A DNA stretch of 64,000 nucleotides, taken from NCBI RefSeq assembly GCF_000264315.1, contig NZ_AJXU01000021.1, positions 1-64,000 of the forward strand, given 5' to 3'. The notes below the pieces were generated by a model. It saw nothing but the letters and a program-made list of their open reading frames with translations. It ran no database searches and was not told the origin of the DNA. The translations under genes and the position numbers were made by a program. This document shows positions 14,029 to 62,042 of this stretch, one piece after another (position 1 is the first letter of the stretch; each line of letters starts with the position of its first letter). Source of the stretch: Rhodanobacter fulvus Jip2 (lineage in GTDB: Bacteria; Pseudomonadota; Gammaproteobacteria; Xanthomonadales; Rhodanobacteraceae).

Positions 14029-14055
14029 GCCAGGCCGGGGATGCAGGGGATCAAC

Positions 14056-47100: not shown

Positions 47101-48919
47101 ACTCCCACAGGTCGGCCAGTGCGTATTCCACCGCGAACAACGCCGGCTGGGTGAAACGTGTATCCGCCAGCGCGGCGTTTGCCGCTTCCTCCTCGCCGGC
47201 CGCGGGCAGGATCAGCGAACGCAGGTCGCGATCCAGACAGGTGGATGCGATGGCGCAGCAGCGCTCGAACGCATCGCGGAAAACCGGCTCGCTGTCGATC
47301 AGTTCGCGGACCATGTGGGCATGCTGCGAACCCTGCCCCGGAAACAGGAACACCGCGGAAACCGACGCCGCCACCGGCGCCTGCGCGGACAGTTCGGCCA
47401 GCCTGGCGCGCGCGTCGGCCACGTCGCGGGCCACCACGCAACCACGCACCGGCAGCGCGCGCCGTCCCACTGCCAGCGTGTAACCGATATCGGGCAGCGA
47501 GGCGTCGGGGCGATCCGCCAGTGCGTCGGCCAGCTCGGCGGCACGGCGCAGCAGCGCAGGTTCATCGCGTGCGGACAGCGGCAACAGCGTGAACGGCCGG
47601 CCCGGCGCGGCGGTTTCGGGCAACGGCGCCTCCTCAAGGATGACGTGCGCATTGGTGCCGCCCACACCGAACGAGCTGACACCCGCACGCCGCGGCCGTG
47701 CGCCGCGTGGCCAGTCGATCAACTGGTCGACGACCTTGAACCGGCCGGAGGCGAAATCGATCTCCGGGTTGGGCACGCGGTAGTGCAAGGTAGGCGGAAT
47801 CTTGCCGTGGTGCAGCGCCAGTGCAGCCTTGATCAAACCGGTCACGCCGCTGGCGGCATTGAGGTGGCCGAGGTTGCCCTTGACCGATCCCAGCCAGCAG
47901 CTGTTGCCGGTAGCCGGAGACGCGCCGAATGCGCGGGTCAGCGCGGCAACTTCGATGGGATCGCCCAACGGCGTCGCCGTGCCATGCGCTTCCACGTAAC
48001 CGATCGACTCGGCGTCCACATCGGCGCTGGCCAGCGCCTGGGCGATCACCGCCGCCTGCCCGCGCACGCTGGGCGCGGTGAAGCTGGCCTTGTCGCCGCC
48101 ATCGTTGTTGACGCCCACGCCGCGGATCACCGCGTAGATGGTGTCGCCATCGGCGATGGCCTCGGCGACGCGCTTCAGCGCCACCACCGCGCCGCCGGAC
48201 GAAAACAGCGTGCCGCTGGCCGCCGCATCGAAGGGGCGGCAATGGCCGTCCTCCGACTCCATGCCGCCCTCGACCGGCAGGTAGCCGGACGCCTGCGGCA
48301 CCACGATGTTGATGCCGCCCGCCAAGGCCAGGTCGCACTGCCAGCTCATCAGTGCGTACCAGGCTTGCGCAATCGCCACCAACGAGGTGGAGCAGGCCGT
48401 GTGCAGGCTCAGCGCCGGGCCGGTCAGGTCGAGTCGATGGGCCACGCGGGTGGCCACGTAGTCCTTCTCGTTGGCCAGCATGGTGGCGAATTCGCCGGCG
48501 GCCTGGACCAGGTCCGCGCGTGAATCCACCAGCTTGCGGTAACCGTTGTTGGAGGTGCCGGCATACACGCCGATGCTGCCGGGAAACCGTTGCGAATCGA
48601 CGCCGGCGTTCTCCAGCGCGTTCCAGCACAGCTCGAGAAACACGCGCTGCTGCGGATCCATCAGCAACGCTTCGCGCGCAGGGATGCCGAAGAACGCCGC
48701 GTCGAAGCGATCGGCATCGGCAATCACGCCGCGTGCGGGCACATAGCGTGGATGCGCGCGCAGGTCGGCCGCGATGGACGGCGACAGTTGATCGGGGGTG
48801 AACCGGGTGATGCTCTCGCGTCCGGCCAGCAGGTTGCGCCACAAGGCATCGACCGAATCGGCGTCGGGAAAACGCCCGGCCATGCCGACGATGGCAACGC
48901 CTTCGATATCCTGGTTCAT
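41159..48919 (-). CDS. Hybrid PKS-NRPS with aminotransferase: KS-AT-ACP-AMT-C-A-T
   Basis: A 2586-residue hybrid. Ketosynthase (1-430; Cys176 in TACSTSL, His312, His352), acyltransferase (about 520-820; GHSIGE Ser619, HAFH 715-718, the malonyl type), carrier (LGLDSL Ser947), class III PLP aminotransferase (about 1080-1520; TYGKIIGGG Lys1361), condensation (about 1545-1970; HHLVMDG), adenylation (about 1985-2465; code DILQLGMIWK, glycine-like) and carrier (GGHSLL Ser2526). No KR, DH, ER or thioesterase. KS-AT-ACP-AMT modules of the iturin/mycosubtilin kind convert a beta-keto thioester to a beta-amino one. It would extend the upstream aminoacyl carrier by malonate, aminate it, and join glycine. 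It overlaps the preceding A-T gene by four bases. Confidence 0.95.
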   Translation of the reverse strand: MNQDIEGVAIVGMAGRFPDADSVDALWRNLLAGRESITRFTPDQLSPSIAADLRAHPRYVPARGVIADADRFDAAFFGIPAREALLMDPQQRVFLELCWNALENAGVDSQRFPGSIGVYAGTSNNGYRKLVDSRADLVQAAGEFATMLANEKDYVATRVAHRLDLTGPALSLHTACSTSLVAIAQAWYALMSWQCDLALAGGINIVVPQASGYLPVEGGMESEDGHCRPFDAAASGTLFSSGGAVVALKRVAEAIADGDTIYAVIRGVGVNNDGGDKASFTAPSVRGQAAVIAQALASADVDAESIGYVEAHGTATPLGDPIEVAALTRAFGASPATGNSCWLGSVKGNLGHLNAASGVTGLIKAALALHHGKIPPTLHYRVPNPEIDFASGRFKVVDQLIDWPRGARPRRAGVSSFGVGGTNAHVILEEAPLPETAAPGRPFTLLPLSARDEPALLRRAAELADALADRPDASLPDIGYTLAVGRRALPVRGCVVARDVADARARLAELSAQAPVAASVSAVFLFPGQGSQHAHMVRELIDSEPVFRDAFERCCAIASTCLDRDLRSLILPAAGEEEAANAALADTRFTQPALFAVEYALADLWESWGVQPAAMIGHSIGEYVAACRAGVFSLDDALALVVARGAAMAAQPRGAMLAVRLDAEGVASRLPPGVEIAGHNALALTVVSGSEAAIEGFAQALSDNSIASTRLRVSHAFHSAAMDGALPFFRRAFEGVSLHAPQRPFYSCVRGAPITAAEATSVDYWCAQLRQPVHFVEAVQDVLARQEKAVLLEVGPAQALTGLARSMLDGRGRAVASLGPAARPGDASEHMQRALGECWCAGITPAWADYFTGQQRQRVPLPGYPFRGERYWIEPPAAAPATQHITEGKITMHEGLASTIAPVATPAVPARASRLAQELRELFENLSGEAIAPAHEGDSFLSLGLDSLALTQATLEIERRYGVKLKFRRLMEDLDSVSRLVTLLDETLPAEPVAVAAPLIAPPAPTGASSDPSALAQLIQSQMALMNQQAELLRALAGGTAVPAAPVETSTPVAGEIVPEANLVERPFGASARIVTARHGELNPAQRAWVDAFSRAYGQRTARSKAFSQQHRALMADPRVVTGFNPLWKELTYPIVVERSQGARLWDLDGNEYIDLLNGFGVNFLGYQPEFITAALHAQLDAGMEIGPQHPLTADVAQLINDMTGMPRVAFCNTGSEAVMGAMRIARTVTGRKTIVIFRDSYHGIFDEVIVRGTRTLRSIAAAPGILANAVENVLVLDYGSDEALRIIRERAHELAAVMIEPVQSKHPTLQPHAFVRALRRLCDDGGCALIFDEVITGFRMAPGGAQEYYGVRADIATYGKIIGGGLPFAAIAGGTRWMDALDGGHWQFGDDSYPEAGVTYFAGTFVRHPLALAAAHAALSWVKQQGPALQTGLNARTTGLIDQLNAVFKSRRAPLTALGYSSLWRILVDDDQPCASLFWYRLRHEGLHVYEQFNCFLSVAHGDAEVARIVEAVTAAVDALMDGHVLTPRDASTEPAQAPAPELPMEVPLSEGQLEKWLGGQYGGAAELAFNESMALRLEGTLDVAALRQALQTVWSRHEAFRLSFAADGKSQRINDDTPLPLAEMDYAGYGDEAQTRFTAYCEAQMGLPFDTTRAPLVRFSLVRLGERSHGLHVISHHLVMDGWSVAVFMDELASCYSAAVAGRAPALPVAESFRAYVLDERSRQTRTQASELDYWKAIYATPPAALQLPGDHPQAAPDFAAATERHAFSPALTIALKQEARRLGVSLYSLLLAGFGAWISRLTGQHDFAVGIPFAGQALAGSHALIGDGVNTLPVRLKVDPAATTAALVSRTHAALLDASEHQDVTFMNILRALGLHRRAGGTPLTGVIFNLNPRVPDVAFSGLEYELHDCRRAALAWDLFFNLNDTAKTLTLDLHYATARFDNATIRRWIQTYEAVLAGMVGNGSQVANGSGRTDARDTLTTLIDAQVKRTPQRIAVACEGRTLSYAELDRRATAVAQALLARGVGRGQLVGVSMPRSEHMLIAVLGVMKSGAAYVPLDPAFPEERLRYMAEHAQLRHVLTAEVDALPASLARGRELLAIADIEAGPPAAATLPVVEGSDLAYVLYTSGSTGQPKGVCVSHRNLANFLTSMRTQPGIDEADVLCAVTTLSFDIAGLELYLPLIAGARVVVASDARQRDPDALLQLLRECQASVLQTTPALLRMLADHDAAGVMRKLKLLVGGEELPRATAALLTGKCRELWNMYGPTETTIWSTLVQVQPGPGPVPLGRPIARTRIHILDEQQQAVPQGEVGEIWIGGDGVADGYLFRDDLTAERFRPDPFATDGSRMYRTGDLGSERDGVLFFHGRVDHQLKVRGYRIEPGDIEAAAGTDPAVRECVAVAQSFGDNDVRLVLYVAAAVDDPAWLAQLRDRLRDQLPAYMLPQHIERLDSLPKTPNGKIDRKALPLPARAAEFAAPSAASPAPSKQSALMGPREVYIAGIWRELIGVEDARESDNFFDVGGHSLLAVEFATRVQRETGVRIHLLDIATGTLASLARELPETAAATAPGTPSFGARLRRLLGIG

Positions 48920-50796
48920 TGCATGCCTCCACGCCTGGGCGCAAACCGCGCCAGCGCCGCGCGCTGACGATTGCCACGTGCCAATTCATCGGCTGACGAC
49001 GGCGCCGCAGCAGGCGCGTCCGACAACAGCGAGGCCAACCGGGCGACGCTGGGATGCTCATAAATCTGCGCGGCGCTGAGCGTGTGAAAACCGCGGCGGC
49101 GCAACTCCGTCAACGCCCGCACCACGGTCAGCGAACGCGCGCCCAGGTCGAACAGGTTCTGCTGCACGTCGATCTCGGCCAGGCCCAGCAGTTGCTGCCA
49201 CAGGCCGCGCAACTGCTGCTGCAGCGGTGCGTCCTCCTGCCAGGTCAGTGGCGGGGCGGTGTTCGCGGTCGCCAGCGCGCGTCGATCGATCTTGCCGCTC
49301 GCGGTGAGCGGCAGCAGCGGCACCACCACGAACGCGTGTGGCTGCAGATACGCGGGCAACCATTGTTCGCCATGCGCGCGCAGCTCCCGCAGCAGCACGG
49401 TCTCGTCCGTCTGCGCATCGCGCGGCACCACATGCGCCACCAGTCGCCGGCCTTGCGCATCATCCACCGCCACCACGACCGCCTCGGCGACGCCGGGATG
49501 GCGGCCCAAAACCGACTCGATCTCGGCCGGCTCGATGCGGAAGCCGTCCAGCTTGATCTGCTGATCCAGCCGGCCTCGGTAGGTCAGCACGCCGTTGCCG
49601 GTATCGCACACGCCATCGCCGCTGCGATACCAGCGCTCGCCATCGAGCTCGATGAAACGTTCGGCGGTGAGATCCGCTCGATGGATGTAGCCGGCGGCAA
49701 GGCAATCGCCGCCCAGCAGCAACTCGCCTTCGGCCGGGGCGTCGACATCGCGCAGTGAATCATCGACCAGGCGTACCCGCACATGCGGCAGCGGTTGCCC
49801 GATCGGCGGCAGCTCGGGCCAGTTCGTCGCGTCGCCCGCCAGCTCGTGCGCCGTGACCACATGCGTTTCGGTGGGGCCGTAATGGTTGTGCAGCACGCCA
49901 CCGTCGAGCGCGGCAAACAGCGTGCGGATCGCGGGTGTCACGCGCAACTGTTCGCCCGCCGTCACCACGTCACGCAAGGTGGCTGGCATCTGGCCGCCGG
50001 TCGCCACCGCTTCAGCCAGCGCCTGCAACGCCACATAGGGCAGGAATATCCGCTCGACGCGTTGCCGCGCGATCAACGCCAGCAGCGCGTACGGATCGCG
50101 GCGCTCCGCTTCCGTGGGCAACACCAGGGTGCCGCCGACGGCGAAGGTCACCAGCATTTCCTGGAACGACACATCGAAGCTCAGCGGCGCAAATTGCAAC
50201 GTGCGCGCGGGGTGCCCAAGCCGCGGATGCGACACATGCCACGCCACCAGATGCCCGAGCACGGCGCTGCGCATGGCCACACCCTTGGGGCGCCCGCTGG
50301 AGCCGGAGGTAAACAGTACGTAGATCCACTCACCCGCCGCCTGCGCCGCAAGCGGCGCCATCGCCGCCGCCACCGTTTCGAGCTGATTGCGATCAATGCG
50401 CGTCGTACCGTCGGGAAGGTCGTAGCCTGCCTGCGCGTCCGCGATGAGCAATCGCGGCCGCGCATCTTCCAGCATGGCCGCCAGCCGGACCGGCGGATAC
50501 GCCGCATCCAGTGGCAGGCAGGCGCCGCCGGCCAGCGCAATCGCCAGCATCAGGATCAGCGTGGCGGGGTCGCGCTCGGCCACCAGCGCGATCACATCAC
50601 TGCGCTGCATGCCTTGTGCCTGCAATGCAGCAGCCAGCCGCCCTGCCCGCTCCAGCAGCTCGGCGTAGTCGATTGACGCATCCAGCGCACACAAGGCGAT
50701 CGCCTGCGGGCGCAGGTGTGCCTGCGCGCGGATCAGGTCCAGCATGTGCGCGGCGGCATGCTCGCTGGGCGGCATTGCGGCGATGGCGACGGACAT
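48916..50796 (-). CDS. Nonribosomal peptide synthetase loading module A-T, proline-like code
   Basis: A 626-residue adenylation-carrier didomain. FTSGSSGRPKG, HYGPTETH, YRSGDG and ASGKIDR mark the A domain (about 20-505); FDLGARSL (Ser555) is the carrier. Manual code DVQFVAHVVK differs by two conservative residues from the DVQLIAHVVK proline code I recall from gramicidin S and tyrocidine. With no condensation domain it should start the line and pass prolyl to the ketosynthase of the next gene, whose start overlaps its stop by four bases. The ATG at 50794-50796 overlaps the cupin stop; an in-frame TTG 15 bases upstream is less likely. Confidence 0.9.
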   Translation of the reverse strand: MSVAIAAMPPSEHAAAHMLDLIRAQAHLRPQAIALCALDASIDYAELLERAGRLAAALQAQGMQRSDVIALVAERDPATLILMLAIALAGGACLPLDAAYPPVRLAAMLEDARPRLLIADAQAGYDLPDGTTRIDRNQLETVAAAMAPLAAQAAGEWIYVLFTSGSSGRPKGVAMRSAVLGHLVAWHVSHPRLGHPARTLQFAPLSFDVSFQEMLVTFAVGGTLVLPTEAERRDPYALLALIARQRVERIFLPYVALQALAEAVATGGQMPATLRDVVTAGEQLRVTPAIRTLFAALDGGVLHNHYGPTETHVVTAHELAGDATNWPELPPIGQPLPHVRVRLVDDSLRDVDAPAEGELLLGGDCLAAGYIHRADLTAERFIELDGERWYRSGDGVCDTGNGVLTYRGRLDQQIKLDGFRIEPAEIESVLGRHPGVAEAVVVAVDDAQGRRLVAHVVPRDAQTDETVLLRELRAHGEQWLPAYLQPHAFVVVPLLPLTASGKIDRRALATANTAPPLTWQEDAPLQQQLRGLWQQLLGLAEIDVQQNLFDLGARSLTVVRALTELRRRGFHTLSAAQIYEHPSVARLASLLSDAPAAAPSSADELARGNRQRAALARFAPRRGGMQ

Positions 50797-51737
50797 CAGC
50801 GGTTTCCCCAATCTCGCGATCGGTTCGCGCCGAAGGCCTCGCCCACGCTCAGCACCGGACCCAGCAAGCGCAGGTACGCGCCCAGCAAAAACCCCTTCAG
50901 CGGATGCCTCAGCCGCCGCCGCTGTTCAACCACGTCGCCGATGAACGCCGACCAGTTGTCCGGCCCCAATTGATCGAACGCGATCGAGATCGTCATGTTG
51001 AGGCTGCGCGCGGTGTGCCACCAGCCGCACGGCAGGAACAGCGTTTCACCCGCCCGCACCACCACCTTTTGCGATTTCGCCTGGCGCAACAGCGGGTAGC
51101 GTTCGTAATCCGGGTGATGGTGGTCCTGGATGCTGGATTGCCAGGGGATGTCCGGATTGACGTAGAGCAGGTGCTCCTGCCCCGGCGCGTACACGGTGAA
51201 TTCCTTGTCGCCGTGCAACTGGGTGATCCACGCGTGCAGGCGCATCACGTCGTAATGCAGGTAGGGGAATTCGCCACCCGGGCCACCGAAGAAGATCTCC
51301 AGGTTGTTGACCGACCGGAACAGCTGCTGCGGCAGCAGCGGATTGGCCTGGCGATCGGGCAGGCTGTAGCGGAACCGCGGCGTGACCTCGGACACCAGTT
51401 CGCGGAAATCCCTGGCGATCTCGAACTTGCACGGATACGGCGCCGGCTGGTCCACCGTGGAGGCTTCCAGCAGGTCGATCAACTCGCCCAACGCGTAGTC
51501 GCGGCCGCGTACCCGCACCGTGCGACTGCCGTAGGCGCGGCGAAAATGGTCGGGCGTGGCGCGCCCATAAATGGGCCACTCGCGGGCGGCATCCACCAGA
51601 ATGACCGGCCGCCGGGGCTTGCGATGTTCGGCGATGAACTCGTCCACGCCCATGCCGGCGATACGCTGCACCGGTACGACATCATCCGACGGCATCAGGG
51701 CCTCGGACGCAACCGCTGCGGAAATCTGCTCGTTCAT
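50796..51737 (-). CDS. Cupin-8/JmjC-like Fe(II)/2-oxoglutarate oxygenase, copy 2
   Basis: A 313-residue protein of the FIH/JmjC-like cupin-8 family. FGGPGGEFPYLHYDVMRLHAW provides the His-x-Asp pair of the iron site and FLPCGWWHTARSLN the distal His (parts cited). RPVILVDAAREWP opens the family fold. It is a tandem paralogue of the next upstream gene and is joined to the NRPS loading module by a one-base stop/start overlap. It probably hydroxylates an amino acid, perhaps while tethered to a carrier protein, since it is co-expressed with the NRPS. The substrate is inference. Confidence 0.87.
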   Translation of the reverse strand: MNEQISAAVASEALMPSDDVVPVQRIAGMGVDEFIAEHRKPRRPVILVDAAREWPIYGRATPDHFRRAYGSRTVRVRGRDYALGELIDLLEASTVDQPAPYPCKFEIARDFRELVSEVTPRFRYSLPDRQANPLLPQQLFRSVNNLEIFFGGPGGEFPYLHYDVMRLHAWITQLHGDKEFTVYAPGQEHLLYVNPDIPWQSSIQDHHHPDYERYPLLRQAKSQKVVVRAGETLFLPCGWWHTARSLNMTISIAFDQLGPDNWSAFIGDVVEQRRRLRHPLKGFLLGAYLRLLGPVLSVGEAFGANRSRDWGNR

Positions 51738-51783
51738 TGCACTCGTCCCCTGTGTGCCGCACTCGTGTCGGCAATATCCATGA

Positions 51784-52731
51784 TCAATGCATACCCCAGT
51801 CGCCGCGGCGACCGGTCCCCGACCGCCTGGCGCCCCACCGCTCGGCAAAATCCAGCCATGGGCCCAGCATGCGCAGATAGACAGCCAACATGACAGCCCG
51901 GCCATTACGCTGCGCCCGGCGCTCGGCAGCACACACCTCGCCCACGAACTCGGCCCAGTTGTCGGCCCCCAATTGATCGAAAGCAACGGTGATGCCCACG
52001 TTCAGGCAGCGCGCCGTGTGCCACGTACCGCAAGGTAGAAACAGCGCCTCACCCGCATGCACCACCACCTTGTGGCAGCGCGCCTGGCGAAACAGCGGAA
52101 AGCGATCGTCATCGGGGTTTTCCGAATGCTCCACGCGGGACAGCCACGGTTTCAGCGGGTCCACATAAAGCAGCGGCTCCTGTCCGCGCTCGTACAGGGT
52201 GAACTCCTTGTCACCGTACATCTGCGCGATCCACGCATGCATACGCAGATAGTCATAGTGCAAATAGGGGAACTGGCCGCCCGGCCCGCCGAAAAAGATC
52301 TCCAGGTGGTTGACCCACTCGAACAGCGCCGTGGGAATCAGCGGATTGGCGTGGCGGCTTGGCAGGCTCTGGGCGAAGCGCGGGCTGATGTCCGGCAGCA
52401 GGCTGGCGCAATCGGAAAAGGTGCACGGGTAAGGCCCCGGATGCTGCTCGTCGGACGCCTCCTGCTGCTCGATGACCTCGCTCAGCCGGTAATCGCGACC
52501 ACGTATCCGGATCAGCCGGTCGCCGTGCTCGCGCTTGAAGAAATCGGGCGTGTAGCGACCAAGGGCCGGCCATTGGCGCAGCGCATCGGTGAGGATCACG
52601 GGGTGCCGTGGCTCGCGGTAGCGACGGACGAACTCCTCCTGGCTCAGGCCGCTGACACGCTCGATCGCTTCAGCCGCGTCGACATCGACGCGAGGCGGGG
52701 CCACGACGGCGCCGGAATAATCGAATGTCAT
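51784..52731 (-). CDS. Cupin-8/JmjC-like Fe(II)/2-oxoglutarate oxygenase, copy 1
   Basis: A 315-residue paralogue of the preceding entry: FPYLHYDYLRMHAW gives His-x-Asp and FLPCGTWHTARCLN the third iron ligand. RHPVILTDALRQWP and NHLEIFFGGPGGQ are shared with copy 2. GGGGG four bases before the ATG is a good ribosome-binding site. It is the first gene of the long minus-strand run, 46 bases ahead of copy 2. Two hydroxylases in a row suggest two hydroxylation events or different substrates. Confidence 0.87.
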   Translation of the reverse strand: MTFDYSGAVVAPPRVDVDAAEAIERVSGLSQEEFVRRYREPRHPVILTDALRQWPALGRYTPDFFKREHGDRLIRIRGRDYRLSEVIEQQEASDEQHPGPYPCTFSDCASLLPDISPRFAQSLPSRHANPLIPTALFEWVNHLEIFFGGPGGQFPYLHYDYLRMHAWIAQMYGDKEFTLYERGQEPLLYVDPLKPWLSRVEHSENPDDDRFPLFRQARCHKVVVHAGEALFLPCGTWHTARCLNVGITVAFDQLGADNWAEFVGEVCAAERRAQRNGRAVMLAVYLRMLGPWLDFAERWGARRSGTGRRGDWGMH

Positions 52732-52849: not shown

Positions 52850-52991
52850 TATCGGGAAAGCTATCTTATACTTGTCGTTGGTCAAGGGCGATGCCCGGAC
52901 GCTGTTCCGGCCAGCCTTTGGTGGCGCCGCGCCACAACATCGAAGTTGCGCGACAGGGGCGCGCACGCGGCGCCGGACAGGGGGATGCACC

Positions 52992-53630
52992 GTGGCTCGC
53001 GACACCGATTTTCTTGAGCTGTACCGGAACCTCGGGTTGAACCCCGACTGCGGACTGATCGAGTTCAAGCAGGCCTATCGCCGTCGCCTGGCCGTCCTGC
53101 ACCCGGATCGGCAAACCGCGGCCACGCGTACGTCGCCGGCCGAACTGCAGCGGCTGACTGCGATGTACGGCGCCGCCATGGAATTCCAGCGCCGCCACGG
53201 TCGCCTCCCGGGCGCGCCGCAAGCGCGTCCGGCCCGCAGCGTGATGGCCGGCCGGTCGTCACGCCCTGCCATCACCGCGGCGCCCAACGGCCGTTCGCGG
53301 CGCATGTTGGTGTTGCTGGGGGTCTCGGTCGCGGTGTGGCTGCTGTGGAACAACGAGCCCGCGCAACAACCGCACATGACCTGGTCCCTCGCCGCACCGT
53401 CGCACCCGGCGCCACCGGCGAAAACCGCTGCCAGGGTTTCTCCGCTGGCGCCGGGGCTGGGCGAGGACGCCGTGCGCGCGGCGGAAGGCGAGCCGCTGAT
53501 CATGAGCGACGGCCGCTGGGAATACGGCCCCTCATGGGTTCGCCTCGAGGATCACAAGGTGGTGGACTGGTACAGCTCGCCGCTGCGTCCGCTGAAATCC
53601 GCGCCGTCATCGTCGACCTCGCAGCCATGA
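52992..53630 (+). CDS. Membrane-anchored J-domain protein
   Basis: A 212-residue protein from the GTG start, eight bases after AGGGGG. Residues about 6-60 are a J domain (FLELYRNLGLNPDCGLIEFK then HPD at 37-39), so it can stimulate an Hsp70. A basic linker leads to a single membrane helix (MLVLLGVSVAVWLLW, 105-119), placing the C-terminus in the periplasm. The end RWEYGPSWVRLEDHKVVDWY is a small beta-hairpin motif seen in envelope proteins. It opens the asnB operon. It may assist folding or localisation of the large synthetases (inference). Confidence 0.75.
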   Translation: MARDTDFLELYRNLGLNPDCGLIEFKQAYRRRLAVLHPDRQTAATRTSPAELQRLTAMYGAAMEFQRRHGRLPGAPQARPARSVMAGRSSRPAITAAPNGRSRRMLVLLGVSVAVWLLWNNEPAQQPHMTWSLAAPSHPAPPAKTAARVSPLAPGLGEDAVRAAEGEPLIMSDGRWEYGPSWVRLEDHKVVDWYSSPLRPLKSAPSSSTSQP

Positions 53631-53755: not shown

Positions 53756-55738
53756 ATGTGTGGAATCGCAGGCTTTTCAGGCGTTCCCGCAGCGCCCGAA
53801 ACAGCTCGGGCCACGCTGGAGCGGATGATCCATACGCTGCATCACCGCGGCCCGGACGGCTATGGCTTCCATGTGGGCGATGGCGTGGGGCTGGCCCATG
53901 CGCGGCTTTCGATCATCGACCTGGCCACCGGCCAGCAGCCTATCCACAACGAGCGGCGCACCGTGTGGACGGTGTTCAACGGCGGGATCTTCAACTACGT
54001 CGAACTGCGGGAGCAGCTGGAGCGCCAGGGCCATCGCTTCTACACGCAATCCGACACCGAAGTGATCGTGCACCTGTACGAGCAGCACGGCGATGACTTC
54101 GTCAGCCATCTCAACGGCCAGTTCGCGATAGCGCTGTGGGACGCCGAGCGGCGCCGGCTGCTGCTGGCGCGCGACCGCACCGGCATCCGCCCGCTGTTCC
54201 ATACCCGCGCCCATGGCCGGCTCTGGTTCGGCTCGGAGATCAAGGCCTTGCTGGCCGTGTTGCCGCAACGGGCCACGCTCGATCCGACAGGCCTGGCGCA
54301 GACGCTGAACTACTGGGGCCCGGTCGACCCCGCCACGGTCTTCGAGGGCATCCACAGCCTGCCGCCCGGCCATGTACTGACCGTGGACGAGGGCAATCGG
54401 GAAACACTGCGCCGTTACTGGGACTGGAGCTTCCCGGTCGCGGCGGAACAGACCATGGCTAGCGCCCGGCGCATGTTCGGCTCGGAGGAGCAGGCCGCCG
54501 CCGAGCTGCGCGAGCTGCTGATCGACGCCGTACGCCTGCGCCTGCGCGCCGACGTGCCGGTCGGCGCCTACCTCAGCGGCGGACTGGACTCGTCCGGCAT
54601 CGTGGCGCTGATCCGTCGTTTCACCGACACGCCGGTGCGCACGTTCTCGGTCGCGTTTGCCGACAGCGAGTTCGACGAAAGTGCGGAACAGGCCGCCATG
54701 GTCCGTCACCTTGGCACCGAACACACCACCATGCACTGCTCGCGCCGCGATATCGGCATGGCCTTTCCGCAGCTGATCCGCCACACCGAGACACCTATTC
54801 TGCGCACGGCGGCGGCACCGCTGATGCTGCTCTCCGGGCGCGTTCGCTCCGAAGGCTACAAGGTGGTGCTGACCGGCGAAGGCGCGGACGAGGTATTCGG
54901 CGGTTACGACATTTTCAAGGAAGCCAAGGTACGCCGTTTCTGGGCGCGGCAACCGCAGTCACGCTTCCGCCCACGATTGCTTGAACGTCTTTACGGCTAT
55001 CTTGAGAATTCGCCGGTCGGCAACGCGGCGTTCGCGCAGGCCTTCTTCGGCAAGGGCATGGAACACATCGACCGGCCCATCTTCGCGCATGCGCCACGTT
55101 GGGCTACCTCGCAACATGCGCTGCGGTTCCTTTCAGCGGACATGCGCGCCAGCATTGGCGACTGGCAGCCGCTCGACGGCTACGAGCAACGGCTGCCCGC
55201 GTCCATCATGTCCTGGCACCCGTTGGCGCGCGACCAGTACGTGGAGGCCAAGTCGCTGCTGGCGGCGTACCTGCTGCCGGCGCAGGGCGACCGGGTAGCG
55301 ATGGCCAACTCGATCGAGGGGCGTTTTCCCTACCTCGATCACCGGTTGATCGAGTTCGCCAACCGCCTGCCACCGAGCTGGAAGATCCGCGGCCTCACCG
55401 AAAAATACCTACTGCGCCGCGCGCTCGATGGACTGCTGCCAGCGGACATTCTCCACCGCACCAAGCAACCCTATCGCGCACCCGACCAGACGAGTTTCTT
55501 CTTCGATGGCAAACCGCTGGATTACGTGGCCGACCTGATGAGCAGCGAACGCATCCGCGCCGCCGGCTACTTCGACGCCGACGCCACCGGCCGCCTGTTC
55601 GACAAGTGCCGCCACGGACGCGCGATCGGTTTCGCCGACAACCAGGCGTTCGTCGGCATCCTCTCGACCATGCTGCTCGATGAAACCTTCCTGCGTCGTT
55701 CCTCCAGCGATCCGCACGGCGCCCTTTGCAGCGACTGA
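53756..55738 (+). CDS. asnB: Asparagine synthase-like glutamine amidotransferase (exosortase-A amidotransferase type)
   Basis: A 660-residue two-domain enzyme: N-terminal glutaminase (Cys2, RLSIID, QSDTEV) and C-terminal ATP-pyrophosphatase (SGGLDSS, 274-280; GEGADEVFGGY). AsnB enzymes adenylate a carboxylate and amidate it with ammonia from glutamine. In exosortase-A EPS loci a relative is always near an acyl carrier and AMP-ligase, as here. In the usual FNGEIYN motif Glu is Gly (FNGGIFN, 74-80), which may weaken glutamine binding. Substrate unknown; a carrier-bound or sugar carboxylate is likely. Confidence 0.88.
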   Translation: MCGIAGFSGVPAAPETARATLERMIHTLHHRGPDGYGFHVGDGVGLAHARLSIIDLATGQQPIHNERRTVWTVFNGGIFNYVELREQLERQGHRFYTQSDTEVIVHLYEQHGDDFVSHLNGQFAIALWDAERRRLLLARDRTGIRPLFHTRAHGRLWFGSEIKALLAVLPQRATLDPTGLAQTLNYWGPVDPATVFEGIHSLPPGHVLTVDEGNRETLRRYWDWSFPVAAEQTMASARRMFGSEEQAAAELRELLIDAVRLRLRADVPVGAYLSGGLDSSGIVALIRRFTDTPVRTFSVAFADSEFDESAEQAAMVRHLGTEHTTMHCSRRDIGMAFPQLIRHTETPILRTAAAPLMLLSGRVRSEGYKVVLTGEGADEVFGGYDIFKEAKVRRFWARQPQSRFRPRLLERLYGYLENSPVGNAAFAQAFFGKGMEHIDRPIFAHAPRWATSQHALRFLSADMRASIGDWQPLDGYEQRLPASIMSWHPLARDQYVEAKSLLAAYLLPAQGDRVAMANSIEGRFPYLDHRLIEFANRLPPSWKIRGLTEKYLLRRALDGLLPADILHRTKQPYRAPDQTSFFFDGKPLDYVADLMSSERIRAAGYFDADATGRLFDKCRHGRAIGFADNQAFVGILSTMLLDETFLRRSSSDPHGALCSD

Positions 55739-55759
55739 ATCTCCAACCCAAGGAAAACC

Positions 55760-56029
55760 ATGTCGAACGAACCCAAAGAAATCGAAGCCAAGATCCGCAG
55801 CTACATCCTGGAAAACCTGCTTTTCAGCAACGACCCGACCGAACTGCCCAACGACGCCTCGCTGCTGGACCGCGGCATCATCGACTCCACCGGCGTGCTC
55901 GAGATCGTGCTGTTCCTCGAAGGCGAGTTCGATATCCAGATCAAGGCCAGCGAGATGTTGCCGGAGAATTTCGATACGGTGAACAACATGGTCGCCTTCG
56001 TGCAACGGCTGCGGGTTGCCGTGCAATGA
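55760..56029 (+). CDS. Acyl/peptidyl carrier protein
   Basis: An 89-residue free-standing carrier protein. The phosphopantetheine site is Ser43 in GIIDSTGVLE, within a typical four-helix sequence (IRSYILENLL, VLEIVLFLEGEF). It lies between asnB and the AMP-ligase, 21 bases after asnB and overlapping the ligase by ATGA. It probably carries the acid activated by that ligase, which could then be amidated or passed to the EPS. Confidence 0.92.
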   Translation: MSNEPKEIEAKIRSYILENLLFSNDPTELPNDASLLDRGIIDSTGVLEIVLFLEGEFDIQIKASEMLPENFDTVNNMVAFVQRLRVAVQ

Positions 56030-57585
56030 CGATACCGTCCCAACGCCTGCTGCAGGACGCCCTGCTGGCCCGCGCCACCGACCCCGCGTTCGCGGACAAG
56101 CCGGTGGTGGTGATCGAAGGGCAGCCTTACCGCTATGCCGAGCTGCTGGACAGCACGCAACGCCTGGCCGGCGCACTGGTGACGCGCGGGGTGGCGCGCG
56201 GCGATCGCGTGGCGATCTACATGGACAACAGCTGGCCGTGCGTGGTGTCCATCTTCGCCGTGCTGCTGGCCGGCGGCGTGTTCCTGCTGATCAACCCGCA
56301 AACCAAATCCGAAAAACTCGGTTTCATTCTCGATGACAGCGGCGCCCGCCTGCTGCTGACCGACGGACACCTGGCGCAGGAGTTCGTGCCGCTGTTCGGC
56401 CATGGCTTGTCTCCCGCCCAGCTGGTCAGCTCGGGCAAGCTGCCCGATGGCCACGACATCGCCGCGTTCGACGTGGTGATCCACGCCGCTGCACCGCTAG
56501 CCGTGCCGCCGGCCACGATTCCGCTGGACCTGGCCGCCTTGATCTACACCTCGGGCAGCACCGGCACGCCCAAGGGCGTCATGCAGACGCACCAGTCGAT
56601 GGTGTTCGCCCGCGACAGCCTGATCGAATACCTGCGCCTGGCCGCGCACGACAACATCCTGTGTGCCCTGCCGCTGGCGTTCGACTACGGCCTGTACCAG
56701 TTGCTGATGACGGTGCAACTGGGCGCCACACTGGTGCTGGAACGCTCGTTCACCTACCCCGCGCAGGTGTTTGCGCGAATGGCTGAATTCGGCGTCACCG
56801 TATTCCCCGGCGTCCCCACCATCTTCGCGATGCTGCTGTCGGCGCACCGACGCGAACCTCTGCATTTCCCCGGCGTCACCCGGGTCACCAATACCGCCGC
56901 TGCCCTGGCCGACGACGCCGCCACCCGTCTGCGCGAGATCTTCCCCCACGCGCTGATCTACAAGATGTACGGGCTCACCGAATGCAAGCGGGTGAGCTAT
57001 CTCGCGCCCGAGCTGGCGCAGAGCAAGCCTGGCTCGGTAGGCAAGGCCATTCCCGGCACCGAGGTATACCTGCTTTCCGTCGACGGCCAGCCCACCGCCC
57101 CGGGCGAAACCGGCACGCTGTACGTGCGCGGCCCGCACGTGATGCGCGGCTACTGGAACCGCCCGGAATTGTCGGCGCGCATGCTCAAGCCCGGCCCGCT
57201 GCCCGGCGAAATGGTGCTGTGCACGCAGGATCAATTCCGCATGGACGCCGAGGGCTTCCTGTATTTCGTGGGCCGCAGCGACGACATCATCAAGACCCGC
57301 GGCGAAAAGGTGAGCCCTGTCGAAGTGGAAAACGCCATGCATACGATCGATGGCATTCGCGAGGTGGCCGTCGTCGGTATCGATGACGAACTGCTGGGTC
57401 AGGCCATCCGCGCGTACGTGGTGCTGGAGTCCGGCGTCGCCCTCAGCGGCGGCCAGATCCGCGCGCAGTGCATCAAGCGACTGGAAAATTTCATGGTTCC
57501 GCAGCAGATCGTGCTGTGCGCGGACCTGCCCCGCACCGCCACCGGCAAGGTCAGCAAGAAAGCCCTGCTGGAGCAGACCGCCTGA
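56026..57585 (+). CDS. AMP-forming acyl/aminoacyl ligase (exosortase-A ligase type)
   Basis: A 519-residue ANL-family ligase. The phosphate loop TSGSTGTPKG (175-184), YGLTECKRVSYL, hinge FVGRSDDIIKTRGEK and C-terminal Lys in RTATGKVSKK are all present. The enzyme would make acyl-AMP and load the adjacent carrier protein, with which its gene overlaps by four bases. The same trio (ligase, carrier, asparagine synthase) marks exosortase-A EPS loci. The substrate cannot be read; hydrophobic or amino acids are both possible. Confidence 0.9.
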   Translation: MTIPSQRLLQDALLARATDPAFADKPVVVIEGQPYRYAELLDSTQRLAGALVTRGVARGDRVAIYMDNSWPCVVSIFAVLLAGGVFLLINPQTKSEKLGFILDDSGARLLLTDGHLAQEFVPLFGHGLSPAQLVSSGKLPDGHDIAAFDVVIHAAAPLAVPPATIPLDLAALIYTSGSTGTPKGVMQTHQSMVFARDSLIEYLRLAAHDNILCALPLAFDYGLYQLLMTVQLGATLVLERSFTYPAQVFARMAEFGVTVFPGVPTIFAMLLSAHRREPLHFPGVTRVTNTAAALADDAATRLREIFPHALIYKMYGLTECKRVSYLAPELAQSKPGSVGKAIPGTEVYLLSVDGQPTAPGETGTLYVRGPHVMRGYWNRPELSARMLKPGPLPGEMVLCTQDQFRMDAEGFLYFVGRSDDIIKTRGEKVSPVEVENAMHTIDGIREVAVVGIDDELLGQAIRAYVVLESGVALSGGQIRAQCIKRLENFMVPQQIVLCADLPRTATGKVSKKALLEQTA

Positions 57586-57595
57586 GGGAACGCCT

Positions 57596-58486
57596 TTGAA
57601 CGCTACCTATCTTGCGCTGCGCGACCGCCTCGCCAGCGGCCTCGACGTGCTGCCGGACAAACCCGAGGAAACGCCGGATAGCACGCTGCGCGCCTTGTGG
57701 TTCGCCGCCACCGGCAGCCCGCGCTCGGCCACAGCTGCGGCCCTTGGCGAGCTGCCCTCGCTGGCGCACAACCATGCACATGCGCTGGAACATTTCGTCA
57801 CGCGCCGGCTCGCTGGCGAACCGCTGGCCCACATCACCGGCCGCCAGCATTTCATGGGGCTGGAAATGCTGAGCTCGCCGCAGGCGCTGATACCGCGTGC
57901 GGAAACCGAGCAGCTTGCCGGCGCCAGCATCGACCTGCTGCGGTCCTCGACCTCGCCCCGTCCCGCACGAGTCGTCGACGTCTGCACCGGCAGCGGCAAC
58001 CTGGCGTTCGCCATTGCCCACCACGTGGCCTATGCGGAGGTGTTCGGCAGCGACCTCAGCGCAGAAGCGATCGACTTCGCGCAGCGCAACGGACGCCACC
58101 TGGGGCTAGCGTCGCGCGTGCAGTTCCGCACCGGTGATCTGCTGGCTCCGTTCGAGACGGCGAACTTCATCGATCACACCGACCTGATCGTCTGCGCGCC
58201 GCCGTATATCCGCAGCACCAAGGTCGAGCAGATGGCCACCGAGATCGCCGGTCACGAACCACGCCTGGCCTTCGACGGCGGTCCGTTCGGCGTCACCATC
58301 TTGATGCGATTGATCGAAGATGCGCCGCGCTTTCTGCGCCACGGCGGCTGGCTGACGCTGGAAGTCGGCCTTGGCCAGGGGCCCGCATTGACCAAACGGC
58401 TGCAACGTGACGGGAACTGGCAGGAGGTCCGTGCGCTGGCCGATGCCAACGGCGACACGCGCGTACTGCTGGCCTGCCGAAGCTGA
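57596..58486 (+). CDS. PrmC/HemK-like methyltransferase with altered catalytic motif
   Basis: A 296-residue class I methyltransferase related to PrmC. The SAM site is VVDVCTGSGNLAFAIA, with FGSDLSAEAIDFA for the ribose. The substrate motif is CAPPYI, where the family has N-P-P-Y, so the side-chain-amide-contacting Asn is Ala. N-terminal helices and the ITGRQHFMGLEM region match PrmC. I choose TTG at 57596-57598, eight bases after GAGGG. It probably methylates an amide- or amino-containing small molecule of the operon rather than release factors; a separate true prmC is expected elsewhere. Confidence 0.75.
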   Translation: MNATYLALRDRLASGLDVLPDKPEETPDSTLRALWFAATGSPRSATAAALGELPSLAHNHAHALEHFVTRRLAGEPLAHITGRQHFMGLEMLSSPQALIPRAETEQLAGASIDLLRSSTSPRPARVVDVCTGSGNLAFAIAHHVAYAEVFGSDLSAEAIDFAQRNGRHLGLASRVQFRTGDLLAPFETANFIDHTDLIVCAPPYIRSTKVEQMATEIAGHEPRLAFDGGPFGVTILMRLIEDAPRFLRHGGWLTLEVGLGQGPALTKRLQRDGNWQEVRALADANGDTRVLLACRS

Positions 58487-58536
58487 GAACCGGGCGGCAA
58501 CGCCCGGCAAGAACCACTGTGGTCAAGGGGAAATCC

Positions 58537-59523
58537 GTGGATGAATTGAACTGGGGTGTGCTCGATCTCGACTACGCGCAGGAAGCCGAACGCATCGCCG
58601 CCCGCCTGCGTGAAGCCACCGCGCGCACGCTGCACAAGCGCGGCCTGGTGGTGGCGATTTCCGGCGGCGTGGACAGCTCGGTCTGCGCTGCACTCGCGGT
58701 CAAGGCGCTCGGTGTCGAACGCGTCTACACGCTGATCCTGCCCGAGCGCGATTCGGCCGACGCCAGCGCCGACAACGCGCACATCCTTGCCGAACACCTC
58801 GGTGTGCGCGCGGAAACCTTCGACATCGCCCCCGCGCTGGCCGCCATCGGCTGCTACCGCGCACGCGACGAAGCGGTGCGCCGCGTGCTGCCCGAGTACG
58901 CCGACGACTGGCGCATGAAGATCGCCATCGCCGGCGGACTGGATGGCCGCATCAACCATTTCAACCTGATTGCGCAGGCACCCGACGGCACGCTGCACGA
59001 AAAGCCACTGGGCCTGTCCGAATACCTGCAGATCGTGGCCGCCACCAGCTTCAAGCAACGCCTGCGCAAGACACTGGAGTACTACCACGCGGATCGCCTG
59101 AACTATGCCGTTGTCGGCACCCCCAACAGACTGGAATACGACCAGGGCTTTTTCGTGAAGAACGGTGACGGCTCCGCCGACATCAAGCCGATCGCGCACC
59201 TCTACAAAACCCAGGTCTACGGCATGGCCCGCTACCTTGCCCTACCCGAATGCGTCGCCACCGCCGCGCCCACCACCGATACCTACAGCCTTGCGCAAGG
59301 CCAGGACGAGTTCTATTTCGCCCTGCCATGGCAATCGATGGACCTGGCGTTGTGGGCGCTGGAGCAGCAGTTGCCATCCGCCAGGCTGGCGCACGCCCTG
59401 GATATTTCTCCGGCTGCCGCCGAGGCGGTATACGCCGACATTCAAAACAAGCGGCGCAGCACGCGTTACCTGCATCAGGCGCCCATCCTGCTGGACGAAG
59501 GAATGGGAGCCGCGGCGCCGTGA
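58537..59523 (+). CDS. NadE-like ammonia-dependent amide synthase
   Basis: A 328-residue protein of the NAD(+) synthetase family. The ATP loop SGGVDSS is at residues 42-48, and GTPNRLEYDQGFFVKNGDG, PIAHLYKTQVYGMA are close to NadE. There is no glutaminase domain. The usual NadE of bacteria is about 275 residues; this one carries 50 extra. Its place in an amidation operon suggests the family fold is reused to amidate an operon-specific carboxylate, though ordinary NAD synthesis is possible. GTG at 58537 follows AGGGG by seven bases; GTG at 58519 is an alternative. Confidence 0.8.
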   Translation: MDELNWGVLDLDYAQEAERIAARLREATARTLHKRGLVVAISGGVDSSVCAALAVKALGVERVYTLILPERDSADASADNAHILAEHLGVRAETFDIAPALAAIGCYRARDEAVRRVLPEYADDWRMKIAIAGGLDGRINHFNLIAQAPDGTLHEKPLGLSEYLQIVAATSFKQRLRKTLEYYHADRLNYAVVGTPNRLEYDQGFFVKNGDGSADIKPIAHLYKTQVYGMARYLALPECVATAAPTTDTYSLAQGQDEFYFALPWQSMDLALWALEQQLPSARLAHALDISPAAAEAVYADIQNKRRSTRYLHQAPILLDEGMGAAAP

Positions 59524-60587
59524 CTGACGACACGCCCCAGGGCTCTCGCGATTACGTCGTTCACGCGGGCGACGTCACGCGCGAACGCGATGCCGTTATC
59601 GAGGTGTGGCACGGAAATCTGGGCACATCCGGCCGTCACGCGCCCAAGTTCGACTGGTTCTATCTCCACTGCCCCTATGGCGAACCCTTGGTGAAGCTGC
59701 TTCGCCACCAGCCATCCTCGCGTTGGGTGGGCGCCTGTGCCGCCGGCCCGCGCCGCATGGAGTGGCGGAGGCGTGAGCTTCGCGCCGGTGTACTGGTGGA
59801 CATGGCCGTCGATGCACAGCACCGGACGCTGGGGCCGGCCATGATGCTGCAGGCCGAGCTCATCGAGACGGCGAGGGGGAAGTTCGAGTTGCTTTATGGC
59901 TTCCCCAATCGCAAGTCGTTGCCGGTCGTCAAACGGCTCGGTTACGACGTGTTGGGATACATCCCCCGCTTCTCTCGCGTGTTGCGGCACGCCCCGTACC
60001 TCGAACGGCATCTGCCGCCCTGGTTGGCACGATCGACGGGATGGTTGCTCGACACCTTTCGCGACATGTGGCGTGCACTGAGCAGGCCACATGGTGCACA
60101 TCCCTCGGCCGTCTGGTCCGACCAGGTCGACCCGCGCATGGACGAGCTCTGGCAGCAGTCCAGCCACGGCGACGGGCCGATCACGGTGCGCGACACCACC
60201 TTCCTGCGTTGGCGATTCGACCAATCACCCGCGGCGGCGACGACCTATCTGCTGCTTGGCGACCAACCCGATGGCTCCTTGCAGGCCTGGTTCGCCTGTC
60301 AGGTCGACGGCGACACGCTGAGGGTGCGCGATTTCTGGTCGATGGATGCCAGCGTGGGTGTCGGACGCCGGTGGATCGAGGCATTGATCCGGTGCGCGCG
60401 ACGCGATGGGCATTCCGCCGTTGCACTCGAATACGCGGCCTCTGCACGAAATCTTACCCACTGGCTCGATGCCGGCTTCAGCGAACGCGAAAGGCGACCG
60501 ATCATCGGAAAATGGATGCGGGACCTACCCACCGATACGCCCGGTGCCATCGAGTGGCATCTGACGGCAGCGGACGAAGACGAGTGA
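59520..60587 (+). CDS. GNAT-like acyltransferase, paralogue B (GTG start)
   Basis: A 355-residue paralogue of the protein at 21,338: FDWFYLHCPYGEPLVKLLRH, LYGFPNRKSLPVVKRLGYDV, VDPRMDELWQQSSHGDG and LRWRFD are shared positions. It has two GNAT-like halves, no signal peptide and no membrane helix. The GTG at 59520-59522 overlaps the NadE-like stop by GTGA, so it is the last gene of the asnB operon. With the other copy at the far end of the island, each divergent arm ends in such a protein, which suggests two related acyl or aminoacyl transfers to sugar. Confidence 0.7.
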   Translation: MTDDTPQGSRDYVVHAGDVTRERDAVIEVWHGNLGTSGRHAPKFDWFYLHCPYGEPLVKLLRHQPSSRWVGACAAGPRRMEWRRRELRAGVLVDMAVDAQHRTLGPAMMLQAELIETARGKFELLYGFPNRKSLPVVKRLGYDVLGYIPRFSRVLRHAPYLERHLPPWLARSTGWLLDTFRDMWRALSRPHGAHPSAVWSDQVDPRMDELWQQSSHGDGPITVRDTTFLRWRFDQSPAAATTYLLLGDQPDGSLQAWFACQVDGDTLRVRDFWSMDASVGVGRRWIEALIRCARRDGHSAVALEYAASARNLTHWLDAGFSERERRPIIGKWMRDLPTDTPGAIEWHLTAADEDE

Positions 60588-60702: not shown

Positions 60703-61254
60703 TCATTCGGGAAGCCGCGGCGTGCAGCCCATTGCCGAACCGAAATCGCAGTTGGCGATCATCTTCTGGCACGCCAGGTTGTCGGCCGAGGTGTCGATGT
60801 AGAACGTCGACAGCCCACGCCCGATCAGCTCGTTGATGGCGCGCTGGGTGGCGTACTTGGCCAGGCCCTGCCCCCGCGTGCCCGGGGCCGACCAGATCGG
60901 CCCGATCACCACGTCGCCCGGGCCCACCTTGTAATGGTTGCAGAACGACACGCTTACCCAGCCGCGGTGCAGGATCACCCCATCACGAAGCAGACAATAG
61001 AACATGCGCCCGCCCACGTTGATGCGAACCAGCGACTTTACCCACTCTGAGGTGGTCACCACGCGCCGCAACGGCAACGCCAGCGGCAGCAATTGCGGCA
61101 GACTGGAGACAAACCGGAACTCGACATCATCCCTGGCGGGGGCGTCGAACAGTGCAGTTCGATGCATCCGGTAAATCAACTGATACGGCAGGTTCGCGGG
61201 AATCCGCAATTCAACCAGGCGATCGGCCATGCTGGCGGCAACAGAGTTGGACAA
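60703..61254 (-). CDS. GNAT N-acetyltransferase-like protein
   Basis: A protein of about 183 residues with GNAT motifs: VSFCNHYKVGPGDVVIGPIW (the V-x-G strand), SAPGTRGQGLAKYATQRAIN (the Q/R-x-x-G-x-G/A acetyl-CoA loop) and FYIDTSADNLACQKMI. The start is uncertain. TTG at 61252-61254 has GGGAG about seven bases upstream; a TTG at 61260 overlaps the previous stop; ATG at 61230 lacks a site. It follows the FemAB-like gene directly and is probably in the same operon. Confidence 0.75.
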   Translation of the reverse strand: MSNSVAASMADRLVELRIPANLPYQLIYRMHRTALFDAPARDDVEFRFVSSLPQLLPLALPLRRVVTTSEWVKSLVRINVGGRMFYCLLRDGVILHRGWVSVSFCNHYKVGPGDVVIGPIWSAPGTRGQGLAKYATQRAINELIGRGLSTFYIDTSADNLACQKMIANCDFGSAMGCTPRLPE

Positions 61255-61256
61255 GA

Positions 61257-62042
61257 TCAATCTCCCAGTATCCAGCGAGCCCGATGGGGCATGAAACCGA
61301 ACTTCCGCTTGAAGCGCTGCATCGTTTCGGTGGCGCCGAAATACGTACCGTATGAATAATATTTGACGTCGGGGTGATGCTTGATGACCCACTCGGCCAT
61401 ATCGATGATCATCATCGGCACGATGCCATCGGCCTGATGATCGGCGTGACCATAGATGGTCTCGATCGAACACAGTTCGCCCGCGATCAGGCAGCTGGCA
61501 AACGCATAAAGGTGTCCATCGCGAAGGATGCCGAAGTAAGGATAATCATGCAGCGCGGACGTGGATGGCGGATCGTTGGAAGCCACCGTCTCGCGGGTGA
61601 ACAGCGCCGCCGGCATGGGTCGGCCCTGCCGCACCCGGGTCGAGCGCAGGATGGTCGTGATGTCGTCCAGATGATTGTTGTAGTCGATGCGGTCGAAGCT
61701 GTAACCCAGCCGCAGGGACTTCTTGTAGTTGCGCCGCGCCGCGCTCTCGATCGACTTGAAATAATCATTGAAGTCGTGCGTGAGGTGGCAGGCGGTGACG
61801 CCGTACTGGTAATTGCGCACCAGCGGAAACTTGCGATGGCGGCGCATCGCGTCACGATAGAACTTGCGCACGATACGCTCAAAAAAGGGATCGTTTCCGG
61901 CCGTTTCCGCACAACGAAGGTTGACCTCCAGCGGTGGCAATGCACGCAATTCGGAGATCAGTTTCGTAACGCGGTTGAACACAGTGCGATTTCCATGGGT
62001 GGTTTTGGGTACGTCCGCCTGGCTCGGCGGCCTGACGCACAA
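61257..62042 (-). CDS. GNAT/FemAB-like acyltransferase
   Basis: A 261-residue protein related to FemAB/GNAT-2-type transferases: YGVTACHLTHDFNDYFKSIE, RRNYKKSLRLGYSF and YSYGTYFGATETMQRFKRKF (lysine-rich acceptor region and final helix of the Acetyltransf_6 fold). TTG at 62040-62042, eight bases after GGGGG, is the likely start. Such proteins transfer amino acids or acyl groups to sugars or peptidoglycan. A link to the NRPS-EPS system is possible because it sits at the island edge, but not shown. Confidence 0.7.
   Translation of the reverse strand: MCVRPPSQADVPKTTHGNRTVFNRVTKLISELRALPPLEVNLRCAETAGNDPFFERIVRKFYRDAMRRHRKFPLVRNYQYGVTACHLTHDFNDYFKSIESAARRNYKKSLRLGYSFDRIDYNNHLDDITTILRSTRVRQGRPMPAALFTRETVASNDPPSTSALHDYPYFGILRDGHLYAFASCLIAGELCSIETIYGHADHQADGIVPMMIIDMAEWVIKHHPDVKYYSYGTYFGATETMQRFKRKFGFMPHRARWILGD

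Follow-up and report, generated by a model that had tools for sequence, protein, structure and literature searches.

Loading of aspartate onto a free-standing carrier protein is already known, as are uronamides made by AsnB-type enzymes and aminoacyl sugars (PMC7468200). In papers on such loading, L-aspartate is proposed to be attached through its β-carboxyl group to a free acyl carrier protein (ACP), and S299 and R331 of the ligase VinN are assigned to the α-carboxyl group (PMC7756342); D230 of VinN is described as binding the substrate amine (PMC11253843), and for a VinN-type ligase activation of L-aspartate was shown and an arginine was proposed to hold the α-carboxylate (PMC12186527). The NadE family, in turn, offers a precedent for a change of substrate, since the Francisella homologue acts as a nicotinamide mononucleotide (NMN) synthetase and its nicotinamide adenine dinucleotide (NAD) synthetase activity is reported to be only marginal (PMC3376133). 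We found no description in the open-licence literature of a NadE-like enzyme in a carrier cassette of this kind. Such an arrangement is present in Rhodanobacter fulvus Jip2 (3.88-Mb genome in 130 contigs, given as 99.94% complete), within a stretch of 64,000 nucleotides of contig NZ_AJXU01000021.1, hereafter the window, where six successive genes encode an AsnB-type glutamine-dependent amidotransferase, a free-standing ACP, a VinN-like ligase forming adenosine monophosphate (AMP), a PrmC/HemK-like methyltransferase, a NadE-like ammonia-dependent amide synthetase and a tandem-GNAT acyltransferase. We put at roughly 45% the probability that the cassette makes an amidated C4 acyl group by a carrier-based route.

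The NadE-like protein (58537–59523, plus strand; 328 residues) was used to scan public genomes, which gave at least 577 stretches with relatives; the closest among the matches listed was a Rhodanobacter protein (85%), and the best 80 loci were kept. In 43 of them at least 7.5 kb is available on either side of the NadE-like gene (full-flank loci), and within that distance we found the ACP gene in all 43, the ligase gene in 40, the AsnB gene in 39 and all three in 36; PrmC-like genes occur in 12 and genes for a tandem GNAT-type protein in 30. When the whole set of 80 loci is counted, cut ones included, the ACP, ligase and AsnB genes number 75, 73 and 62, with all three in 57, and the PrmC-like and tandem GNAT-type genes 23 and 45. 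An even draw within the phylum (398 genomes) contained the family in 15, the source genome among them, and in the other 14 loci ACP and ligase were always near the NadE-like gene (14/14 each), AsnB in 13/14 and PrmC-like in 6/14. Wherever the flanks are full the ACP gene stands next to it, in the best-scan loci (43/43) as in the even draw (11/11) and the annotated plasmid records (5/5). None of 20 control stretches, which surround ordinary nadE genes from the same genomes (L138 is cut short), holds cassette genes, and the association is more than chance.

The core gene set is shared by many bacteria of soil and water. By their record titles, loci with AsnB, ACP and ligase beside the NadE-like gene come from Beta- and Gammaproteobacteria and from a Myxococcota bin, among others, and the same genes lie beside it on plasmids of Alphaproteobacteria. 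The NadE-like family occurs in 116 plasmid records, 76 of them from Sinorhizobium; all five annotated plasmid records read and four unannotated stretches, including that of S. meliloti 1021, hold AsnB, ACP and ligase. In the laboratory strain Sinorhizobium meliloti 1021 these three genes and the NadE-like gene are together, and PrmC-like and tandem-GNAT-type genes are found about 11 kb off. The ligase gene of S. meliloti ml56 (L123:18320-19890) has a broken frame, while the main part of the gene reads through in one frame in AK76, LMB1 and 1021. On a Nitratireductor plasmid (L120:1214-10897) the cassette comes after genes for a Mu-type transposase, TniB and TniQ, which suggests mobility. The conserved core consists of ACP, ligase, NadE-like and mostly AsnB, with the PrmC-like and GNAT genes as accessories, so that the set of six, which the first-pass annotation had proposed as a unit, is not conserved as a whole.

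The NadE-like protein scores 461.5 bits against NF002048 (cut-off 313) and is annotated as NAD(+) synthase in the records where its annotation was read, a name which is probably wrong as to its role. One control genome, that of the archaeon Methanosarcina acetivorans, also has an NF002048 match above the cut-off. The first-pass annotation had named, as evidence against its pathway, complementation of a nadE mutant by a protein that is also the genome's only NadE; we found a second, ordinary NadE in the source genome, as two matching pieces, one at an end of contig C14 and one at an end of C13, and a full second NadE in 26 of 30 other genomes with the NadE-like protein. Of the rest, two (G005, G022) have a second NadE that is fragmented or cut by the end of a contig, one (G006) has a lower-scoring second match, and one, a metagenome bin (G028), showed none. 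The family is further set apart by a conserved insertion at about residues 105–160, with invariant residues, which occurs in none of the 10 canonical NadE domains aligned and which is folded as a helix and three strands in the AlphaFold2 model (mean predicted local distance difference test, pLDDT, 89.3). In a structure search with this model the 38 best PDB rows, with Z from 28.2 down to 18.6, were NAD or NMN synthetases, and the Francisella NMN synthetase (3fiu) was the tied best match at Z 28.2. The SGG-DS motif for adenosine triphosphate (ATP) pyrophosphatase is invariant in 29 of 29 family members, and so are R175, T195, E200, K208, D215, K224, T246 and K305.

The ligase (56026–57585, plus strand; PF00501 293.1 bits) is encoded from an ATG at 56026 that overlaps the free-standing ACP gene by 4 bp. 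The carrier itself (55760–56029, plus strand; 89 residues) has the DS motif with Ser43 and matches PF00550 with 21.6 bits, barely above the cut-off of 20.8; its best NCBIfam match is ACP_for_OlsHI, with 59.1 bits under a cut-off of 130. When ligase residues 186–401 were compared with PDB sequences by phmmer, VinN gave 155 bits and the next protein 78. VinN D230, K330 and R331 correspond to D220, K321 and R322 of the window ligase, and F231 and S299 to Y221 and T290, which are conservative, non-identical replacements. The window ligase thus has a VinN-type amino-acid pocket. The earlier proposal of a dedicated carrier pathway with its own loading ligase is supported; loading of an aspartate-like acid on the ACP is well supported as a prediction and is the best supported step of the pathway. 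Loading of a fatty acid by the window ligase is disfavoured by the same pocket.

Ligases could be counted in 91 of 100 loci, the window included. Two loci were left out as their ligase falls in alignment gaps (L066 and L075, by eye of the non-Asp type and lacking a PrmC-like gene), and seven as having no ligase within 7.5 kb (L023, L030, L042–L045 and L048, of which L030 and L042–L045 hold a PrmC-like gene). The carboxylate-binding arginine is kept in the nearest ligase of all 91 loci. Position 220 is Asp paired with T290 in 30 of these ligases and S, A, G, T, N or C paired with A290 in the other 61, with no mixed cases. From this we infer two substrate classes, one aspartate-like and one, from the pocket alone, a dicarboxylic acid without the amine.

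Presence of the methyltransferase follows the same division. PrmC-like genes are found in 26 of the 33 loci with any Asp-type ligase and in none of the 58 without one (window included); by nearest ligase the counts are 26/30 and 0/61, and in the even draw alone 6/7 versus 0/7 (p 0.005). A tree of the NadE-like protein requires nine changes of the ligase state, six of them forced by supported branches, and over six independent pairs PrmC goes with the ligase state in 4.6 on average and in the opposite direction in none. Fisher's test on the raw counts (1e-16) makes the association look too strong, because the tree-corrected test is weak; the direction is consistent. Among the seven Asp-type loci lacking a PrmC-like gene, three (L034, L064, L076) have a nearer non-Asp ligase, and in the S. 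meliloti exception (L123) the gene is about 11 kb off. The methyltransferase had earlier been read as part of the pathway, and its tracking of what the ligase pocket can hold speaks for that view. The window gene (57596–58486, plus strand) lies 10 bp after the ligase gene, and its product scores 206.6 bits with TIGR03534 (cut-off 199.1); another PrmC copy of the source genome, on contig C23, scores 297.9 bits versus 206.7 for the window copy. The window protein has APPY where the PrmC release-factor methyltransferase has NPPY, and among 32 aligned PrmC-like proteins (window counted once) 20 keep the N of this motif and 12 have A, S, L or I instead, a change that may mean that the group methylated is not an amide nitrogen.

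In the route that we favour, the VinN-like ligase would adenylate L-aspartate, or a close relative, at the side-chain carboxyl group to give isoaspartyl-S-ACP with its α-amine and α-carboxylate free, a step we regard as likely. As the operon has no decarboxylase of the VinO/TIGR03099 type, the α-carboxylate would be retained; the NadE-like enzyme would adenylate and then amidate it, and AsnB would supply ammonia or form a second amide. For this amidation, the site of which is putative, we see an even chance. The PrmC-like enzyme would then N-methylate the aspartyl-derived unit; that it acts on this unit is rather probable, with the methylation site conjectural. Finally, the tandem-GNAT enzyme would move the acyl group to an amine, probably on an exopolysaccharide (EPS) amino sugar freed by a deacetylase, and here, with a presumed acceptor, the odds seem about level. 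Sister loci with neither the amine-binding Asp nor the methyltransferase would make a succinamoyl-type group. More tentatively, we may be dealing with a widespread transferable cassette in which a repurposed NAD synthetase amidates the free carboxylate of a carrier-bound dicarboxylic acid, with two ligase types (aspartate- and succinate-like), a PrmC-derived methyltransferase in the Asp version, and a product placed on a surface polysaccharide or another amine. The first-pass annotation had suggested a carrier-bound acid that is amidated, methylated and transferred to sugar; the link between carrier, ligase and methyltransferase held, and amidation and sugar transfer stand as deductions.

Several observations weigh against this route. 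Linkage, pocket residues, covariation and paralogue status are read from the sequences themselves; action of the NadE-like protein or AsnB on the carrier is suggested by linkage. AsnB is absent near the NadE-like gene in 4 of 43 full-flank loci (L021, L025, L037, L062) and 1 of 11 in the even draw, which fits a helper role in ammonia supply or uronamide formation, and the ligase is absent nearby in 3 of 43 (L043–L045). With the full-length ligase, phmmer ranks linear gramicidin synthase A (297 bits, in two stretches) above VinN (261), and F231, reported to be important in VinN (PMC11253843), is Tyr in the window ligase. The succinate reading is weakened since the S299 position is lost in the non-Asp class, and the best NCBIfam match of one sister ligase (L053) is a fatty-acid ligase subfamily, under its cut-off. 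The window's own contig carries, some 50 kb off, a weak match to TIGR03099 (144.7 bits), and in one genome (G009) a TIGR03099 decarboxylase is about 4 kb from the NadE-like gene. The tree-corrected sign test for methyltransferase and ligase gives a median p of 0.06, or 0.125 with the traits swapped, and in three Asp-type loci (L041, L051, L115) the PrmC-like gene is missing in the stretch read. Finally, the eight invariant residues of the NadE-like family are what we take to be nearly all of the deamido-NAD-binding positions given in UniProt, and since these are kept, an NAD-like substrate is possible. The His preceding the last Lys of the canonical site is not kept in the family.

The strongest alternative, although we consider it unlikely, divides the cassette in two: the NadE-like protein and/or AsnB would amidate a sugar nucleotide, for example uridine diphosphate (UDP)-uronic acid, as WbpS does, and the remaining genes would make a separate aminoacyl decoration. 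The AsnB protein of the window (53756–55738, plus strand; 660 residues) has Cys2 and SGGLDSS and scores 508.7 bits with TIGR01536 (cut-off 267.1), besides matching PF00733 and PF13537. UDP-uronic acid carries a diphosphate like deamido-NAD, and the NadE-like protein keeps residues of the dinucleotide site. AsnB homologues are reported to form uronamides of surface glycans: PGN_1234 (WbpS) does so in the Wbp/Vim linking sugar, to which the putative N-acetyltransferase VimA is presumed to attach Ser or Gly (PMC7468200), and WbpS-like genes are mentioned in a Rubrivivax EPS cluster (PMC3684757). Yet the NadE-like gene tracks ACP (43/43) and ligase (40/43) at least as strictly as AsnB (39/43), and the cassette is also found where no polysaccharide genes are annotated.

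In the carrier-based amidation route, transfer of the acyl group would fall to the GNAT protein (59520–60587, plus strand; 355 residues, GTG start), whose gene overlaps the NadE-like gene by 4 bp. Neither Pfam nor NCBIfam yielded a match for it at E 0.01, and its AlphaFold2 model (mean pLDDT 93.2) is predicted to fold as a tandem GNAT, matching 2hv2 (Z 22.1, root-mean-square deviation, rmsd, 3.1 over 292 residues), Eis2 (Z 21.4), the tandem GNAT 7q3a (Z 20.5, rmsd 3.7 over 284) and N-myristoyltransferases (Z about 20 to 21.5); these structural matches of the model do not indicate an acyl donor. A distantly related protein of like length (hhalign E 1.3e-5, probability 80%) was found in seven of the alphaproteobacterial stretches searched.

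The genes around the cassettes speak on the fate of the acyl group. Of the 43 full-flank loci, 23 have a deacetylase-type match (E 1e-6, weak ones included) at most 7.5 kb away, as do 4 of the 11 from the even draw and none of the 20 controls; the window has a deacetylase-like gene at 33495–34859, about 19 kb from the cassette. Of the 81 loci clustered, 30 hold one or more of four gene families that match EPS models of the XrtA set through their representatives. These two frequencies make it improbable that the product is a diffusible small molecule or a lipid head group and no polysaccharide decoration, an idea to which some loci nevertheless lend colour: no polysaccharide genes are annotated within 10 kb of the Nitratireductor plasmid cassette, which lies a few kb past transposition genes, or within 12 kb of that of Shinella, a cluster of nonribosomal peptide synthetase (NRPS) and polyketide synthase (PKS) genes adjoins the cassette in the window, and the ornithine-lipid ACP is the carrier's best, though sub-cut-off, NCBIfam match. 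Equally improbable is an auxiliary genuine NAD synthase that travels by chance with a carrier-acid cassette. In its favour are the conserved residues of the ATP and substrate sites, top structural matches that are all NAD or NMN synthetases and the NCBIfam name NAD(+) synthase. Against it stand an ordinary NadE in the source genome (in two pieces) and a complete one in 26 of 30 others (G028 showed none), the absence of cassette neighbours around ordinary nadE genes (0/20) and the insertion with invariant residues that separates the family.

At the level of gene calls, the six genes are all open frames on the plus strand, tightly packed where the first-pass annotation had placed them, and its family names (AsnB, carrier, AMP ligase, PrmC-like and NadE-like) hold in family scans. 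The successive spacings are 21, -4, 10, 32 (or 50) and -4 bp, the 21-bp gap being that between AsnB and ACP. TTG at 57596 was taken as the start of the PrmC-like gene, which encodes a putative S-adenosylmethionine-dependent enzyme, because the listed ATG at 57350 falls within the ligase gene. For the NadE-like gene GTG codons at 58519 (32-bp gap) and 58537 (50-bp gap) are available; we think the latter better placed, downstream of an AAGGGG stretch, with 58519 a possible alternative.

Directly upstream of AsnB is a gene (52872–53630, plus strand) for a protein that is J-domain-like by eye, with no Pfam match at E 1e-4, and relatives of it are also upstream of AsnB in three other loci (L007, L008, L038). 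Within the EPS locus a multi-gene NRPS/PKS cluster (35738–52731, minus strand) adjoins the six genes; it encodes condensation, adenylation, ketosynthase, acyltransferase and class-III aminotransferase domains, and two cupin-type hydroxylase-like genes are included. On the other side, at 60703–62042 (minus strand), two overlapping open reading frames, one with a GNAT match, are possibly a single gene with a frame break, or their starts were wrongly chosen.

AsnB and the ligase had also been placed among the families of exosortase-A EPS loci, a framing that we do not retain. AsnB reaches 441.9 of the 816.9 bits needed for TIGR03108, about half, and is also under the TIGR03104 cut-off; the ligase reaches 404.6 of 592.35 bits for TIGR03098, about two thirds. 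In the source genome we found no exosortase by TIGR03109 or PF09721, and these absences together with the sub-cut-off family scores rule out membership. Exosortase matches were present in 10 of 31 genomes tested, and were likewise absent from the tested genomes of Rhodanobacter, Dyella, Dokdonella, Pseudoxanthomonas, Lysobacter and Luteimonas. Genes of the XrtA type for EPS export and chain length are found in the window at 13396–15606 (plus strand), with TIGR03027 and TIGR03007 above cut-off. As for the decarboxylases, none of the six genes encodes the pyridoxal phosphate (PLP)-dependent enzyme of the VinO pathway, and TIGR03099 gives only 144.7 and 50.9 bits in the source genome (cut-off 478.45). 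Around the best matches to TIGR03099, six above the cut-off and one under it, we read seven stretches: three (L148, L150, L154) have a ligase with the VinN D and R and no NadE-like gene nearby, three have no ligase, and one has a NadE-like gene with a non-Asp ligase. The exosortase-A pair of ligase and decarboxylase may, by these residues, work like VinN and VinO; as the neighbourhoods are mixed, a choice between decarboxylation and amidation is a lead only.

The ligase pocket code amounts to a concrete substrate prediction, and the gene set of S. meliloti 1021 makes the carrier-linked acid chemistry directly testable. If the carrier-based route is true, automatic annotation of NAD metabolism would be corrected. 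Among the described systems closest to the locus are VinN/VinL of vicenistatin and BolO/BolC of bolagladin, with which it shares a free-standing ligase having equivalents of D230, K330 and R331 and adjoining a free-standing carrier. It differs from them by Thr for S299 and Tyr for F231, and by the lack of a VinO/BtrK-type PLP decarboxylase in the operon, which instead has NadE-like, AsnB, PrmC-like and GNAT genes. The Wbp/Vim system of Porphyromonas gingivalis likewise combines an AsnB-type amidotransferase with a putative N-acyltransferase, presumably putting an amino acid onto an amino sugar, but the accessible account describes no trio of carrier, ligase and NadE-like protein, and there it is the carboxylate of the sugar itself that bears the amide. 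The XrtA/PEP-CTERM set (TIGR03108 AsnB, TIGR03098 ligase and TIGR03099 decarboxylase) also has a related AsnB and ligase in EPS loci, whereas the window proteins are under the first two cut-offs and the genome has neither an exosortase match nor a TIGR03099 match above cut-off. With NadE and the Francisella NMN synthetase, finally, the NadE-like protein shares the fold, the ATP pyrophosphatase motif and substrate-site residues, and it is distinguished from both by the insertion at about 105–160, its carrier-cassette context and its coexistence with an ordinary NadE.

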